Source: a virus
Direction: 5' to 3' (one strand)
DNA length: 25,993 bases
IMG/VR virus record: IMGVR_UViG_3300047386_000169
Location: 1 to 25,993 of that record
The translations under genes were made by a program, and so were the position numbers. Position 1 is the first letter of the stretch, and every line of letters starts with the position of its first letter. The notes under the pieces are model-generated. The model was not told the origin of the DNA. It was given only the letters and a program-made list of their open reading frames with translations, and did not search any database. This document shows positions 9,285 to 25,993 of this stretch, piece by piece.

Positions 9285-9747
9285 TAACGTCTACCTTAGG
9301 TCAGCCCGTAAATCTGACTGTGAAGAGGTAGGCATCAACATGCGCCACATTGACAAGCTTGAATGTTTGTTAACCAGTGGGTCCACCCCAACACAAGCAT
9401 TGTTCTTAGGATTAGAGCAGGACTACCATACGTGGACTATATGCGCCAAAGACGATCACGCTCCCTTAGCTTGCTTTGGGATCGGTGAGCTTGTCAAAGA
9501 TAACACCAATTACATCTGGTTGTTAATGACCGATAGGCTGCTTCAAGTTGCGGGCTTTGAGTTTGCTAAAGCTAGTAAAGCTTGGCTTTCCTTTATTGTT
9601 AACCACTACAAACTACCATGTGTCAACCACGTCCACGTCCAAAACACCACAGCTATTCGATGGCTTAAGTGGTGTGGTGCTGAGTTCTCCGATGACGACT
9701 TCACCGACTTCCTTTCATTCCAAATCAATCCCTCATTCTCTAAATAA
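9241..9747 (+). CDS. T7 gp13-like protein (GNAT-like fold)
   Basis: The frame contains VYLRSARKSDCEEV at the N-terminus and NTTAIRWLKWCGAEFSDDD near the C-terminus, matching the pattern of T7 gp13 (IRPTKSTDFEVF ... NTSHIRFLKTIGAVFHEEYT), a small protein with an acetyltransferase-like fold needed for infective virions. No ATG lies between the gp12 stop and this homology. GTG at 9241, overlapping gp12 by 44 bases, is the most natural start (168 aa); the next ATG (9340) would remove the first conserved strand. A farther ATG at 9070 would give a long unnatural prefix read out of frame through gp12. Whether it has acetyltransferase activity is unknown. Confidence 0.75.
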   Translation: MNSKPTSIPVQLEYNNVYLRSARKSDCEEVGINMRHIDKLECLLTSGSTPTQALFLGLEQDYHTWTICAKDDHAPLACFGIGELVKDNTNYIWLLMTDRLLQVAGFEFAKASKAWLSFIVNHYKLPCVNHVHVQNTTAIRWLKWCGAEFSDDDFTDFLSFQINPSFSK

Positions 9748-9752
9748 CAATT

Positions 9753-10283
9753 ATGTGTGAACCTATCTCGATGGCTATGGGTGCTGCCAGTGCTATCTCC
9801 TCCTTCGCTGGGCAACAAGCTGCGGCAAGCGCCCAAGAAAAAGCTCAAGCGCAAGCCTCTGCTGCTGAACAAGTTAGAGCGCAACGTGCTAATACCGCTA
9901 TACAGGTAAGAGCCGGACAGGAAAACATCGCAAGGTCACAACGAAAAGAAGCCGCTCAACTCCAAACTATGGAAGCTAAGTCGCGTGCTAGGCTTGTTGC
10001 ATTAACTGAAGCAGGTGTAGGCGGACGTTCCTTAGACCAGATCCTAGGAGCGATGACAGCAAAGAGTGGGCGATACAGCGCGTCCGAGGAACGACAGAGA
10101 AAACTACAAGCACAGCAGACGGCCTTTGAGATGGAAGAAGGAGCAATACGATCACGAATGAACCAGCTTAGAATCAACCAGCCAATCAAACAAGCTAGCC
10201 TGTTGGAATCAGGGTTACAAGGAGTGCAAACAGGTCTTTCTACATTTCAACTTCTACCCGCAAAAACTAAGTCAGATAACTAA
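9753..10283 (+). CDS. Internal virion (core) protein B, T7 gp14-like
   Basis: An ejected core protein thought to form the pore in the outer membrane. It begins MCEPISMAMGAASAISSFAG, a Cys-Glu-Pro start followed by an Ala/Gly hydrophobic segment, the standard start of marine gp14-like proteins. The middle is Ala/Gln-rich coiled coil (AQEKAQAQASAAEQVRAQRA) and then VALTEAGVGGRSLDQILGAM. The 176-aa length is near T7 gp14 (196). The start is behind AATAACAATT and the stop overlaps the next ATG (TAATG), so B and C are coupled. Confidence 0.85.
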   Translation: MCEPISMAMGAASAISSFAGQQAAASAQEKAQAQASAAEQVRAQRANTAIQVRAGQENIARSQRKEAAQLQTMEAKSRARLVALTEAGVGGRSLDQILGAMTAKSGRYSASEERQRKLQAQQTAFEMEEGAIRSRMNQLRINQPIKQASLLESGLQGVQTGLSTFQLLPAKTKSDN

Positions 10284-13200
10284 TGACAACTGAAGAACTT
10301 AAAAAAGCTTTATCTCAACAAACACGAGAGATTGTTAATGTAAACGTAGGCCAAGTTCCATTACAGCCAACCGTAACTAGGGGTGGTCAGTATAACGTAG
10401 TCACGGCTCCTACACCTAAACAGAACTCTCTAACTCGTTTAGCAACAGCTTTAAATCAATTACCACAAATTGCAGGGCAGTTTAAAAACATCCGACAAAA
10501 AGCTGGTGTTGAAAAGGTCCAAGCGATGGACCCGCAGGAGATTAAAGATGAGTTAGCACGTCGCGCCGAGGCTGGTGATCAAGAGTCCAAGAATTTTCTA
10601 TTTGACTGGGGACACCAAGAAGCGGTCGATAAAGCTCTTTACAACCAGTTGTTTAAGTCTGAGATCCAACCCGCGTTAGATAGATTAGAACAAGATTTTA
10701 AAAACTCCAGCTTACAGGAGATTAACAAACAGCTTACAAAAGATGGAAAGATTGACACAGACGAGAACATTCAACAGCGTTTAGTCGATGCTTATAAAGC
10801 TGCTATCCCCGAGGAGATTAACGAAATGGTTAAGAATTTTCCAAACCAAGTGTCTCTTCACAATCAACTGTTACTTCAGTTACCGGCCTTTGCCTCAAGA
10901 ACCCATGCCCAGCTAGTTGAAAAACGACAGAAGTTTCTGAACGACAGCATGTATCAAAACATTGGTTCAAGCTTATCAGGATTGCGCGATATGCCTACAG
11001 CACAAGTCGCAGCGCCGGGAGACAACGTAGAGATCACTGGAGAGTTTGGAATGTTACCTCCACTCGCAGGAGACCCTTTCCGAGAGCGTAGTGAGGAAGA
11101 TGAGCCGGTCCTTTCACCTCAGACTGTGCAAAGCAACATCTCAATATACTCGCCACAAAAAGGAGGAAAACTTAAGAAGATGGAAGGAGGCTACGCCTCG
11201 TCACGCCCCGGAGCTGACGGAAAGAGTATCGTAAGAACTTTAGAAGATTTTCGAAAAGACCCAGAGAATACGGTAGTAACAGTCGCGGGTAACCCTGAGT
11301 TCTATGGTCGTCGTTATGTTGTTGAAAGTATGACGTATGAGACCAAAGACGGAACGCAGCATACGCTTACTAATGTTCCTGTTATGGTTCACGATACCGG
11401 CTCCGCGTTTGAAGATGCTCCCGAAGGACGCTTTGACATACCGGTAGATAAGGACTCCAACAACGCAATGATGGCGAAAAACGATGCGCTGTTGAAAGGC
11501 ATCTCATTTATTCGCGATCAAGACAAGGAGACAGAAAAACCAGAACTGGTCACAAAAACCGCTAGTCAAGTAGTTAAACAAGGGAGTAACGATTATCAGC
11601 ACAAACTAAAAAGCCGTGCTGAACAGATGTCTGTGTTAATTAACAACACGCAAAACAACGCGCTTCGGGATGCAGGGACCAACGTCGATCAAAGTAAAAT
11701 TAAAAACCAAGTAATAGCAGACACGACCCGAGAACTGTTATTGTCAGTCAGTGACGGGAATCTTGAAGAGGTAGGGGAGTTTGTTGATCTCGCTAAAAAA
11801 GGTTTAATAACAATAGGAGGAATCCCTTACGACGCGGGAATGCTGACATCCGTAACAAAAGCGATAGACAGTAAACAAGAGGATCTCGACCGTCAAGAAG
11901 ACAGAGACAAAGATAAGATAGGCGAAGACCAAGCGGAAGAACTGCTAAAGAATATTGCGGGTTTGCGAGGTTCTTCAGACACAATGGGACCGGGAGAGTA
12001 TAAGAAATCTTTGGATGACCTTGAAAAACAAACATCTCAATTAAGAAGTAGAGGCGAACTAGGGCAAGCCGCTTACAATAATGTTATATCAGAGATAAAC
12101 AGATCTCGCGAAGGTGACCTTAAAACTAGCGACGAATGGGCCAAACCAGGCTTTAGAACAAACATTCACAACGCTTTTCACGCTGATGCAGGAGAGATTT
12201 ATCTTGGGCGTAAGTTTATGGATGTTGCGGAATCACTCGGTAACTCAATGGAACCATTTAAGAAAGTCGATGCCTTTAATATCTCTAACCCTAATAGCAG
12301 AGAGATTCTACTGGACATCATGCAAGGTGCAGACCGGATGGCTTTTGATAGCGCAAGAACGGCAACCTTAAACCAGATTGTCCCTCAGTTTGAACAACGA
12401 GGATTAACAGAACCAATGAACTTCCAAGTCCCCGTCGAAGGAGATTTAGAAGGACCACCAGAACCTATACGTGATCTGTATCGTCGGCTGTTTGAAGCTA
12501 ACTATAAAACCTCCGTCCAGTCAGTTTATTCTAAATTAAAAGGATCTCTGGAGGCACGCGCTGCCAACCAAGCTCAAGCCCTTGAAACATCAGTGTCCAC
12601 TGCGTTAGAGGAAGGGGAACCAATAGAAGGTTTATCTGAAGAGGCAAGCAGGCAGATGAGATACGACGATGCCGCCAAAGCCGTAGAGGAACGTTTAGGA
12701 GGGACCGATTTGCTTGATGAGAAAGGGAAACTTCAAATCAGAAACCGAGAACTACCAACTTACTATCTACGTAAACTTGTTAAGACGTTTACGCCGGAAG
12801 ATGACTTAGAACAAAATAGCGAACGAATGCAAGTTATCGTGGAGAGAAACACACTTGAGCAACGCCAAGCTGCTTTTCGGATGGCTAACACGAAGATCGA
12901 AGAGAATGATTTTGGTTTTTTGAAACACAACGCAAAGAAACTAACAGACAAACTCAGAAGCGGAGATACGTCAGGGTATTCTAAATCTTTAAACGAATTT
13001 ACAAACATATTTAAATACACTGGTCTATCTATGAAGATCCACGGTAATGAAGGAATATTTGAAGACCCAATACTAGACCCTAAAACAGGACGTAAAAAAG
13101 GAGACCTAGGATTATTGGATAACGTCAAACCTAAATGGCAAGCTGAACGCTTGAACTTAAACTGGAATGAGCGTTACAAAAAAGAAGAGACCGCTAAAAC

Positions 13201-21848: not shown

Positions 21849-21903
21849 TTGAATAACAATCCTTTACAAATAAGACCCATAATAGGGTAAGGGGAAAAAT
21901 AAG

Positions 21904-22019
21904 TCTATCTTAGGATTATCCCGAAGGTGGATGGTCTAAGGATTATTTCCTTCCAATAACATCCCTCCTCATTCTCTATCTTAGAATTACCCCGAAGGTG
22001 AGCTTATCTAAGGATTATT
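21904..22019 (+). repeat. Two direct repeats of about 44-45 bp in the late/early junction
   Basis: Copy 1 is 21904-21947 and copy 2 is 21975-22019. Both run TCTATCTTAG(G/A)ATTA(T/C)CCCGAAGGTG, then 8-9 variable bases, then TCTAAGGATTATT. Each unit thus starts with a CTTAG and ends with a CTAAG (reverse complements of each other) and contains ATTA/ATTATT. Position after the last late gene is where a T7-like genome carries terminal-repeat or packaging signals. No open frame covers the stretch. Function unknown. Confidence 0.75.
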
Positions 22020-22050
22020 AATATCATCCTCATCATCCTCCACCTAAGGA

Positions 22051-22108
22051 GATCTTATAATATCTTAGAATAAGGGAGGCTTAAGGGAGTCTTAGAATAG
22101 CTCTAAGA
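22051..22108 (+). promoter_or_regulatory. CTTAG-rich segment with -10-like TATAAT and a perfect 7-bp hairpin
   Basis: TATAAT occurs at 22056-22061 but no TTGACA-like box is found 16-18 bases upstream, so a promoter here is only possible. The hairpin TCTTAGA (22090-22096) / TCTAAGA (22102-22108) has a 5-base loop and uses the same CTTAG/CTAAG words as the repeats upstream. No T run follows, so it is not an intrinsic terminator; an operator or RNA processing site is an alternative. Confidence 0.3.
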
Positions 22109-22153
22109 GAGGAGGAGAAGGATACCTATATAGAACCAACCTATCAGTGTTTA

Positions 22154-22660: not shown

Positions 22661-22741
22661 CCACAGCCTGGTTTTCATTAGTGCTTGTTTTTCGTTGTCC
22701 ACCCCTTTTGAAATGTAGCTGTATGCACAATGTAAACACAA

Positions 22742-22796
22742 CCTAAAGCAACCCAAGTAACACCTAAAGCAACCCAAGTAACACCTAAAGCAACCC
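22742..22796 (+). repeat. Three tandem copies of a 21-bp unit with core CCTAAAGCAACCC
   Basis: The 13-base core is identical at 22742-22754, 22763-22775 and 22784-22796, with linker AAGTAACA between copies, giving an exact 21-base period (two DNA turns). Each core begins CCTAAAG, which from memory is the heptamer repeated next to the T7 terminal repeats. The exact period suggests protein binding on one DNA face. Three units without spacers exclude a CRISPR array. Confidence 0.88.
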
Positions 22797-23325: not shown

Positions 23326-23736
23326 ATGAAAAAGACAGAAAACACAATACAAGGCCGTAAGGTCATTAAACAGGGCAACCGCTTGGTTGTCGAAATCCAG
23401 ACCGGACGCGGTAAAGCGTTCGCCAACATCGCCAAAGAGGAGTTAACACAAGCCACGCGCAAGCTGGGAAGCAACCGAGGCAAAACTAGATTGTGGTTAG
23501 AGGGTAACATCTTATCAAGCCACGGCTGGACCACGGGTGACAAGTTCGACGTGGTTATGATCGATGGTGTTCTTAAATACGCCAAGAATCCAAACGGAAA
23601 AAGGAAGGTAGCCGGGAAGACCGGTCGTCCTATCGTTGACACCAACACCAATACCATTAGCGACACCTTGAACGCATTGCCGGGGGAGGTTGTTAATGTC
23701 GTTGCAACCCGTGAAGCAATCACCATTCAAAAGTAG
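23326..23736 (+). CDS. Hypothetical early protein with two AbrB/SymE-like repeats (136 aa)
   Basis: The central part (residues about 50-85, TRLWLEGNILSSHGWTTGDK, then FDVVMIDGVLKYA) reads like the swapped-hairpin AbrB/SymE pattern (L-x-G-x-x-L...GF-x-x-GD-x-(V/F)-x-V...G-x-L). The second part (about 100-136, GRPIVDTNTNTISDTLNALP, then GEVVNVVATREAITIQK) repeats the theme. AbrB-fold proteins are small DNA-binding regulators or toxin/antitoxin parts, and related halves occur beside phage DNA methylases. I infer DNA binding; the evidence is pattern-level only. The N-terminal 45 residues are basic and may contact nucleic acid. Confidence 0.6.
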   Translation: MKKTENTIQGRKVIKQGNRLVVEIQTGRGKAFANIAKEELTQATRKLGSNRGKTRLWLEGNILSSHGWTTGDKFDVVMIDGVLKYAKNPNGKRKVAGKTGRPIVDTNTNTISDTLNALPGEVVNVVATREAITIQK

Positions 23737-25218: not shown

Positions 25219-25253
25219 AAAGCAACCTAGGGGAAACCTTGGGTTGCTTTTTT
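25219..25253 (+). terminator. Strong Rho-independent terminator of the early cluster
   Basis: A 14-bp stem (AAAGCAACCTAGGG with CCTTGGGTTGCTTT, two G-U pairs), closed by a GAAA tetraloop at 25233-25236, followed by a run of six T (25248-25253). It separates the early cluster from the integrase, which therefore needs its own promoter. Confidence 0.93.
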
Positions 25254-25286: not shown

Positions 25287-25805
25287 ATCGTTGGGGCAAA
25301 AAACATCTTTACATGATGAAAGTTTTCGTCTAATCGTTGGGCATGGCAAACATACAAGACCTATTTGAAGTTACCTTTATCAATCGTTGGGCCGAAAAAG
25401 CCCGCGCGGAGGTAGAGCAAAGGAATATTTCCTTTTGGTTAAAAAACCTACCCAAAACCACAAGGGGGTTATCGTTGGGCGTAATCGACAAGGTGATCCT
25501 TAGCGAGGTCAAGAAGGGTAACAAACCCAGCACCATCAACTCCAAGCTACAGACACTCAAGACCACCCTGGATTTCACACGGGAGCGCGGGATGCATGAC
25601 GTTGGGTTCAAAGTTCCACGCCTAAAGCAACCCAGTGACGCTAGGATGTCGTTCTTTAGCGAGGAGGACCAAGAGGCCATTGAGGCTTTGATTGACGACA
25701 AGGGCTTTCGCCTGTTCTTCCGTTGGTCTATTGAGACAGGGCTTCGTCCATCGGAATCGTTGGGCCTAAAGTCCTCCATGATCCGCAAAGACCCTATCGT
25801 TGGGC
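25287..25805 (+). repeat. Dispersed direct repeat ATCGTTGGGC in and before the integrase gene
   Basis: Exact copies at 25333-25342, 25383-25392, 25471-25480, 25756-25765 and 25796-25805; a one-base variant ATCGTTGGGG at 25287-25296. Shorter CGTTGGG at 25600-25606 and 25888-25894. All are in the same orientation. Inside the gene the copies are read as NRWA, LSLG, SLGL and IVGP, that is, in all three codon phases, so protein constraint does not explain them. Regulator-binding or integrase arm-type sites are the natural guesses. Confidence 0.9.
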
Positions 25806-25993
25806 CGGTGATCGATATTATCAAGACAAAGAACGGGGAGCCAAGGACCATCCCATTAACAACCAAAGCACTGACGGCCCTTGAGACCGTTGGGGAGTGG
25901 AAGCGATACACGTCCTACCGGATCACAAGGGAGTGGGCAAGACTACGCCGAAAAGACCCGGAGGCTTTGAAAGACTTTGTGTTTTATACGTGC
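25343..25993 (+). CDS. int: Tyrosine-recombinase integrase, N-terminal 217 residues (3' end outside the window)
   Basis: It would integrate and excise phage DNA between attP and attB. Residues about 1-95 resemble a core-binding (SAM-like) domain: STINSKLQTLKTTLDFTRER, then LKQPSDARMSFFSEEDQEAI starts the catalytic domain. ETGLRPSESLGLKS holds the first catalytic Arg (Arg135), and IIKTKNGEPRTIPLT the beta-hairpin Lys (Lys161 or Lys163). The HxxR and Tyr motifs would lie beyond the window. The ATG at 25343 directly follows a repeat copy (GTTGGGC-ATG) with no Shine-Dalgarno. Integrases just before RNA polymerase are known in marine T7-like podoviruses and suggest a temperate life style. Confidence 0.85.
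   Translation, partial: MANIQDLFEVTFINRWAEKARAEVEQRNISFWLKNLPKTTRGLSLGVIDKVILSEVKKGNKPSTINSKLQTLKTTLDFTRERGMHDVGFKVPRLKQPSDARMSFFSEEDQEAIEALIDDKGFRLFFRWSIETGLRPSESLGLKSSMIRKDPIVGPVIDIIKTKNGEPRTIPLTTKALTALETVGEWKRYTSYRITREWARLRRKDPEALKDFVFYTC

Follow-up and report, generated by a model that had tools for sequence, protein, structure and literature searches.

A ten-base word repeated in one orientation in and around the integrase gene of Ayaqvirus-like phages

Gene Content and the Integrase Locus

The window, by which we mean the whole stretch of DNA analysed here, is a 25,993-base contig and is all that the record holds; int is truncated at its end, so word counts for a full genome were drawn from relatives. 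Its gene content is that of the T7-like family, with structural genes, terminase, lysin and small early genes followed by int, which encodes a tyrosine integrase (Table 1). The closest named relative is AP013544 (Ayaqvirus S45C18, Autographiviridae), with an integrase identity of 92.5%. AP013544 is an uncultured fosmid genome, and all other relatives considered below are metagenomic contigs.

The full-length integrase (269 aa) has a core-binding plus catalytic layout, with no space left for an arm-binding domain. In an alignment to the 292-residue P2 integrase chain (5c6k), its residue 55 falls at residue 66, and little sequence precedes the core-binding domain. The protein was also aligned to the HP1 integrase, and its size and N-terminal helices gave no indication of an arm-binding domain. 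An AlphaFold model of the integrase reached a pLDDT of 50 and was unusable. No tRNA was found near int, and the candidate int promoter is weak, since it was missed by a consensus scan.

Many contigs begin or end inside int (the window at 25993, L023–L028, L042–L045 and L062), by eye more than expected, perhaps reflecting assembly breaks at strain variation. Elsewhere in the window, an AT-rich noncoding stretch that separates the lysin gene from the ORF after it (21880–22110) carries repeated TCTTAG(G)ATTA..CCCGAAGGTG blocks. A 136-aa ORF at 23326–23736, in which two AbrB-like repeats can be seen by eye, has no Pfam match and is present in some members of clades A and C (see below); it possibly encodes a DNA-binding protein. 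Three tandem 21-bp units with CCTAAAG (ACCTAAAGCAACCCAAGTAAC) lie at 22741–22796. The terminal repeat of T7 is adjoined by CCTAAAG repeats, which these units resemble, and they probably mark the physical genome end, approximately 2.5 kb before int. A 13-mer of the units, CCTAAAGCAACCC, is found again within int at 25621.

Table 1. Features of the int region, in window coordinates.
Feature	Position	Strand	Remarks
Intrinsic terminator-like hairpin upstream of int	25219–25250	+	Position kept in relatives, stem sequence variable
Copy 1, ATCGTTGGGG, one mismatch, upstream of int	25287–25296	+	In a subset of clade A relatives; gone where a ~35-nt upstream segment is missing
Possible int promoter, TTTACA-15-TCTAAT	25308–25334	+	By eye, from sequence and alignment
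Copy 2, exact, abuts int ATG (25343), overlaps 3' end of possible -10 box	25333–25342	+	Kept or nearly so in most clade A, B and C relatives; degenerate in L006, L008, L009 and L018
int, tyrosine integrase gene	25343–25993	+	217 codons inside the window, 3' end missing at contig end (25993); PF00589 matched on full-length relative
Copy 3, exact, codes N-R-W-A, phase 1	25383–25392	+	TCGTTGGGC in 28/29 integrases; no variation in codons AAT and CGT
Copy 4, exact, codes (L)-S-L-G, phase 2	25471–25480	+	TCGTTGGGC in 23/29; not retained in L012 or clade B; clade C has TTCGTTGGGC
Short copy CGTTGGG, codes D-V-G, weak	25600–25606	+	In 14/20
Copy 5, exact, codes (E)-S-L-G, phase 2	25756–25765	+	TCG-TTG-GGC identical in 29/29 integrases
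Copy 6, exact, codes I-V-G-P, phase 0	25796–25805	+	In 22/29; not retained in clade C, where a new copy has arisen further downstream in int
Short copy CGTTGGG, codes T-V-G-E, weak	25888–25894	+	In 12/20

A Ten-Base Word in and Around int

The word ATCGTTGGGC occurs in the window as five exact copies and one single-mismatch copy, all on the plus strand. The original prediction had listed these six copies in a single orientation, with start-to-start spacings of 46, 50, 88, 285 and 40, one copy abutting the int ATG and two shorter CGTTGGG copies (25600 and 25888), and the sequence agrees on every count. Four of the exact copies lie in coding sequence, in phases 1, 2, 2 and 0, and the copies at 25287 and 25333 precede the ATG. 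Exact matches in the record number five forward and zero reverse, with zero for a reversed-pattern control. The prediction had seen no other exact copy in the window, and this extends to copies with up to one mismatch, of which no further ones were found on either strand.

The array in int is not a product of chance. None of 100 dinucleotide shuffles reached six matches (mean 1.01, whole window, both strands). In the shuffled-codon null that had been proposed as a check, run as 20,000 trials of synonymous resampling of int, at least one copy arose in 1,483 trials, at least two in 35 and at least three in none; when the synonymous codons of int itself were permuted, the count never exceeded two.

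In the complete AP013544, all seven sense-strand sites scoring at least 14.2 bits in a position weight matrix scan fall within 930 bp (9633–10562), a stretch that takes in int, the sequence upstream of it and the ORF that follows. Measured from the int start, the array spans about −57 to +870 and sometimes reaches +1060, and all strong sites, in AP013544 as in the other relatives, are oriented along transcription. The sequence 3' of int varies among relatives, being ORF F25, F21 or F30 or directly the gene for a MarR-like protein, and three of these unrelated sequences carry a sense one-mismatch copy of their own (ATCGTTGGGG in F25, ATCGTTGGGA in F21 and ATCGTTGTGC in one MarR variant). None of them has an antisense copy within the 700 bp after int.

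Conservation Among Relatives

A scan of IMG/VR with the integrase protein recovered 23 related loci, all Ayaqvirus-like Autographiviridae, in which the word or its core stands at the same places in int and in the same orientation. The array recurs, likewise with positions and orientation kept, in clade B (L023, L024 and L039–L041, from further scans; integrase identity ~80%) and in clade C (L052, L056, L057, L062, L067, L069 and others; ~75%), where int is ~75–80% identical. Almost every relative has the coding copies at approximately +46 and +419, which are invariant or nearly so down to ~74% integrase identity; those at +134 and +459 were lost in some lineages, and clade C gained one near +629.

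This conservation is seen directly at the DNA level. Among 20 sequences, synonymous diversity was 0.099 in the word vs. 0.328 elsewhere (MWU p = 4e-5), and for conserved codons of 29 integrases it was 0.114 in the main copies vs. 0.417 elsewhere (p = 1.2e-4), p-values that are indicative only because the sequences are related. Thus, the word is kept in relatives along with the protein, with almost no synonymous change at these places. The original prediction therefore withstood its main refutation test, and there is good support for its claim of selection at the level of DNA or RNA. This support draws on same-position retention, the use of three codon phases, the gain and loss of sites, the copies in unrelated ORFs and the absence of the word outside the int-bearing group.

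Within the group, the array is restricted to int-bearing members. RNAP relatives at ~41% identity lack int, and the word is not seen on their sense strand. In clade D, represented by L217 (integrase identity ~59%), int is present and ATCGTTGGGC is absent. An exact 15-mer, CGTTGGAGTCAAAAG, occurs in L217 at 5–19 and 95–109, once ahead of the int ATG and once at position +46; in this one genome it appears to be a site of this type whose sequence has changed. Eleven pelagiphage integrases yielded no conserved repeated word of at least eight bases, and the same procedure finds CGTTGGGC in clade A. A pair-pattern search of all IMG/VR contigs for arrays elsewhere returned this group together with unrelated pairs attributable to chance (L053 and L068 were inspected and belong to the latter), and a scan with AATCGTTGGGCATG for further arrays was too unspecific to be of use. 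No close prophages or lysogens of the group were found in 85k genomes. No published description of such an array was found in the literature searched, and the papers containing the 10-mer were unrelated among the matches listed.

Candidate Readers of the Word

Most relatives encode a MarR-fold protein of ~100 aa between int and RNAP (model pLDDT 87; best PDB matches MarR and MepR), which by its place next to int would be the first candidate for a reader. MarR proteins usually bind palindromes; ATCGTTGGGC is not palindromic, and the word and this protein do not co-vary. In clade B the MarR-like protein is 23–27% identical and has a different recognition helix, and in L052 its gene is replaced by one for a DnaA-C-type HTH protein (PF08299, Bac_DnaA_C); the word is unchanged in both cases. 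With the sequence diverging or the gene being swapped while the word stays constant, the MarR-like neighbour (F2) is unlikely to be the reader. The pattern of conservation is a better fit to a host protein, or to a phage protein that is itself conserved, for example the integrase or RNAP. Even in relatives that are otherwise close, the slot between int and RNAP is filled either by the MarR-like protein or by the HTH protein resembling DnaA domain IV (L052:4095–4478 vs. L067:1270–1602).

Proposed Mechanism and Alternatives

We favor, with a probability of roughly 40%, a roadblock on DNA, in which a polar, stoperator-like operator array would limit transcription through int toward the phage RNAP gene. 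The word would be an asymmetric binding site, present in about six to eight copies that together form a polar array for a sequence-specific regulator, and this regulator would limit both int transcription and read-through to the downstream MarR-like and RNAP genes. Protein bound at the copy that usually lies on the int start would block initiation, and copies in int and the following ORF, aligned with transcription, would act as roadblocks to elongation, in the manner of Cluster A mycobacteriophage stoperators. Such roadblocks in int may stop host RNAP from reaching the phage RNAP gene and thereby hold off the lytic programme. We infer here that a protein is the reader, DNA the target and transcription the process affected. 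In the lysogeny cassette of the temperate T7-like phage LUZ100, host RNAP has been proposed to read through int toward RNAP, and MarR control of lysis and integration in temperate T7-like phages is itself a hypothesis (PMC10134795). Stoperators are asymmetric and mostly in one orientation, they act on initiation and elongation, and their orientation matters (PMC9283540, PMC6550527). Against the roadblock, the sites cluster in ~0.9 kb of mostly coding sequence, and conservation is lower for the copy near the promoter than for those in coding sequence. Since the promoter copy is degenerate in some relatives while the coding copies are kept, a role in elongation or at the RNA level seems to matter more than promoter occlusion. 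More tentatively still, the array could represent stoperator-like lysogeny control in temperate T7-like marine phages, of an origin independent of the mycobacteriophages and read by a possibly host-encoded factor that gates transcription through int to RNAP.

The original prediction had offered three readings of the array: arm-type integrase sites, binding sites for a lysogeny regulator, and sites for an mRNA-binding protein. Regulator sites on DNA or mRNA remain preferred, with the adjoining MarR-like gene an unlikely source of the reader, and the mRNA-binding regulator is the strongest rival to the DNA roadblock. An RNA-binding protein would then read the word in int mRNA (AUCGUUGGGC) and cause a translation block or decay. 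All copies are mRNA-sense and mostly in coding sequence, and an RNA target predicts the same orientation bias. There is also a precedent in P4, whose Vis protein has been suggested to bind the mRNA of int (PMC2951348). However, one copy lies at or before the likely transcription start and the copy at 25287 is upstream of that start, which places them outside the int mRNA unless it begins farther upstream; the predicted accessibility of the copies is slightly under background (0.32 vs. 0.39), and no Rfam family was found. We regard control at the RNA level as unlikely. A simple phage antisense RNA is not indicated, because neither the window nor AP013544 has a reverse-complement copy with up to one mismatch. 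Somewhat more doubtful is a role in recombination, with the copies as arm-type or RDF-binding sites of attP that also autoregulate int, as in KplE1 intS (PMC2951348). Such a role is consistent with ten-base asymmetric direct repeats that adjoin int and are tied to its presence, and with the joint change of word and integrase, the word being kept at integrase identities of at least 74% and altered at ~59% in L217. Yet the integrase is unlikely to be the arm-binding protein because it is core-only, and the sites span ~930 bp, extend deep into int and recur in unrelated ORFs, which weakened the arm-type reading of the original prediction. Near the sites there is no inverted core and no inverted copy, nor is there a tRNA near int.

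Two further explanations carry less weight. The copies might be pause or termination signals for the phage's T7-like RNAP, akin to the T7 class II signal ATCTGTT, that exclude late transcripts from int. The orientation of the copies, the 67–97% conservation of RNAP across clades A, B and C and the position of int, a few kilobases downstream of where the genome probably ends, are in line with this. Nevertheless, no copy of the word occurs elsewhere in the window or AP013544, for instance at the end of the late genes, and ATCTGTT itself is not placed in int, which leaves such signals improbable. A T7-type pause or termination signal is normally a single site. Finally, the word could be a by-product of protein or codon constraint on R-W, S-L-G and V-G motifs, or of chance. 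The R-W and V-G positions are protein-constrained, but the three codon phases, the invariant six-fold codons, the noncoding copies, the copies in unrelated ORFs and the synonymous nulls all contradict this explanation, to which we give hardly any credence.

Comparison With Known Systems

The sites resemble Cluster A mycobacteriophage stoperators (L5, TipsytheTRex) in being short, asymmetric, numerous and in one orientation relative to transcription, with one probably placed at a promoter and the rest spread over the transcription unit. Stoperators differ in being 13 bp long, in exceeding 20 copies per genome, most of which occupy short gaps between genes, and in having a known two-domain repressor, whereas here 6–8 copies of 10 bp cluster in and around the int coding sequence. 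A search for a stoperator-type repressor (HTH plus stoperator domain) found only the MarR-like neighbor discussed above. The array would work like stoperators, but we do not class it as a stoperator array because the genome-wide intergenic distribution is absent. Arm-type and RDF sites at int promoters (KplE1 intS, P4, lambda, L5 attP) are similar in being ~10-bp direct repeats near the int start that are able to regulate int; they differ in that our integrase looks core-only and our sites run through int into later ORFs. The MarR–int–RNAP cassette of LUZ100, the HTVC019P group and Pasto likewise has the three genes close together, with a MarR fold and int before RNAP. In our group, by contrast, the MarR-like gene follows int, and the pelagiphage int lacks a conserved repeated word. 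The T7 class II signal shares with the word its shortness, its orientation and, in principle, an action on elongation, and differs in sequence and in that many copies are confined to int here.

The word bears on how temperate T7-like phages keep RNAP off and choose between integration and lysis. As a conserved, oriented word in int, it offers a bait for the factor that reads it and can be mutated silently, with synonymous versions in all three phases. The array further provides a clear phage example of a regulatory code overlapping a protein code.

Sequences at the Phage RNAP Gene

The clade A RNAP gene contains three sense CGTTGGG sites, kept across the clade, against 0.06 expected from codon usage, a result that is suggestive only, because these sites are weaker and scores on the antisense strand are comparable. 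Upstream of RNAP, ATCGTAGGGAGA was considered as a word-like phage promoter and dropped, as it is not recurrent in the genome. A separate, highly conserved element with a small hairpin, AGAGTCGTAGGAGAGCTACG...TCATTGAACACC, precedes RNAP in clades A–D (L031, ~9682–9745, and equivalents) and is possibly a phage promoter or leader element.
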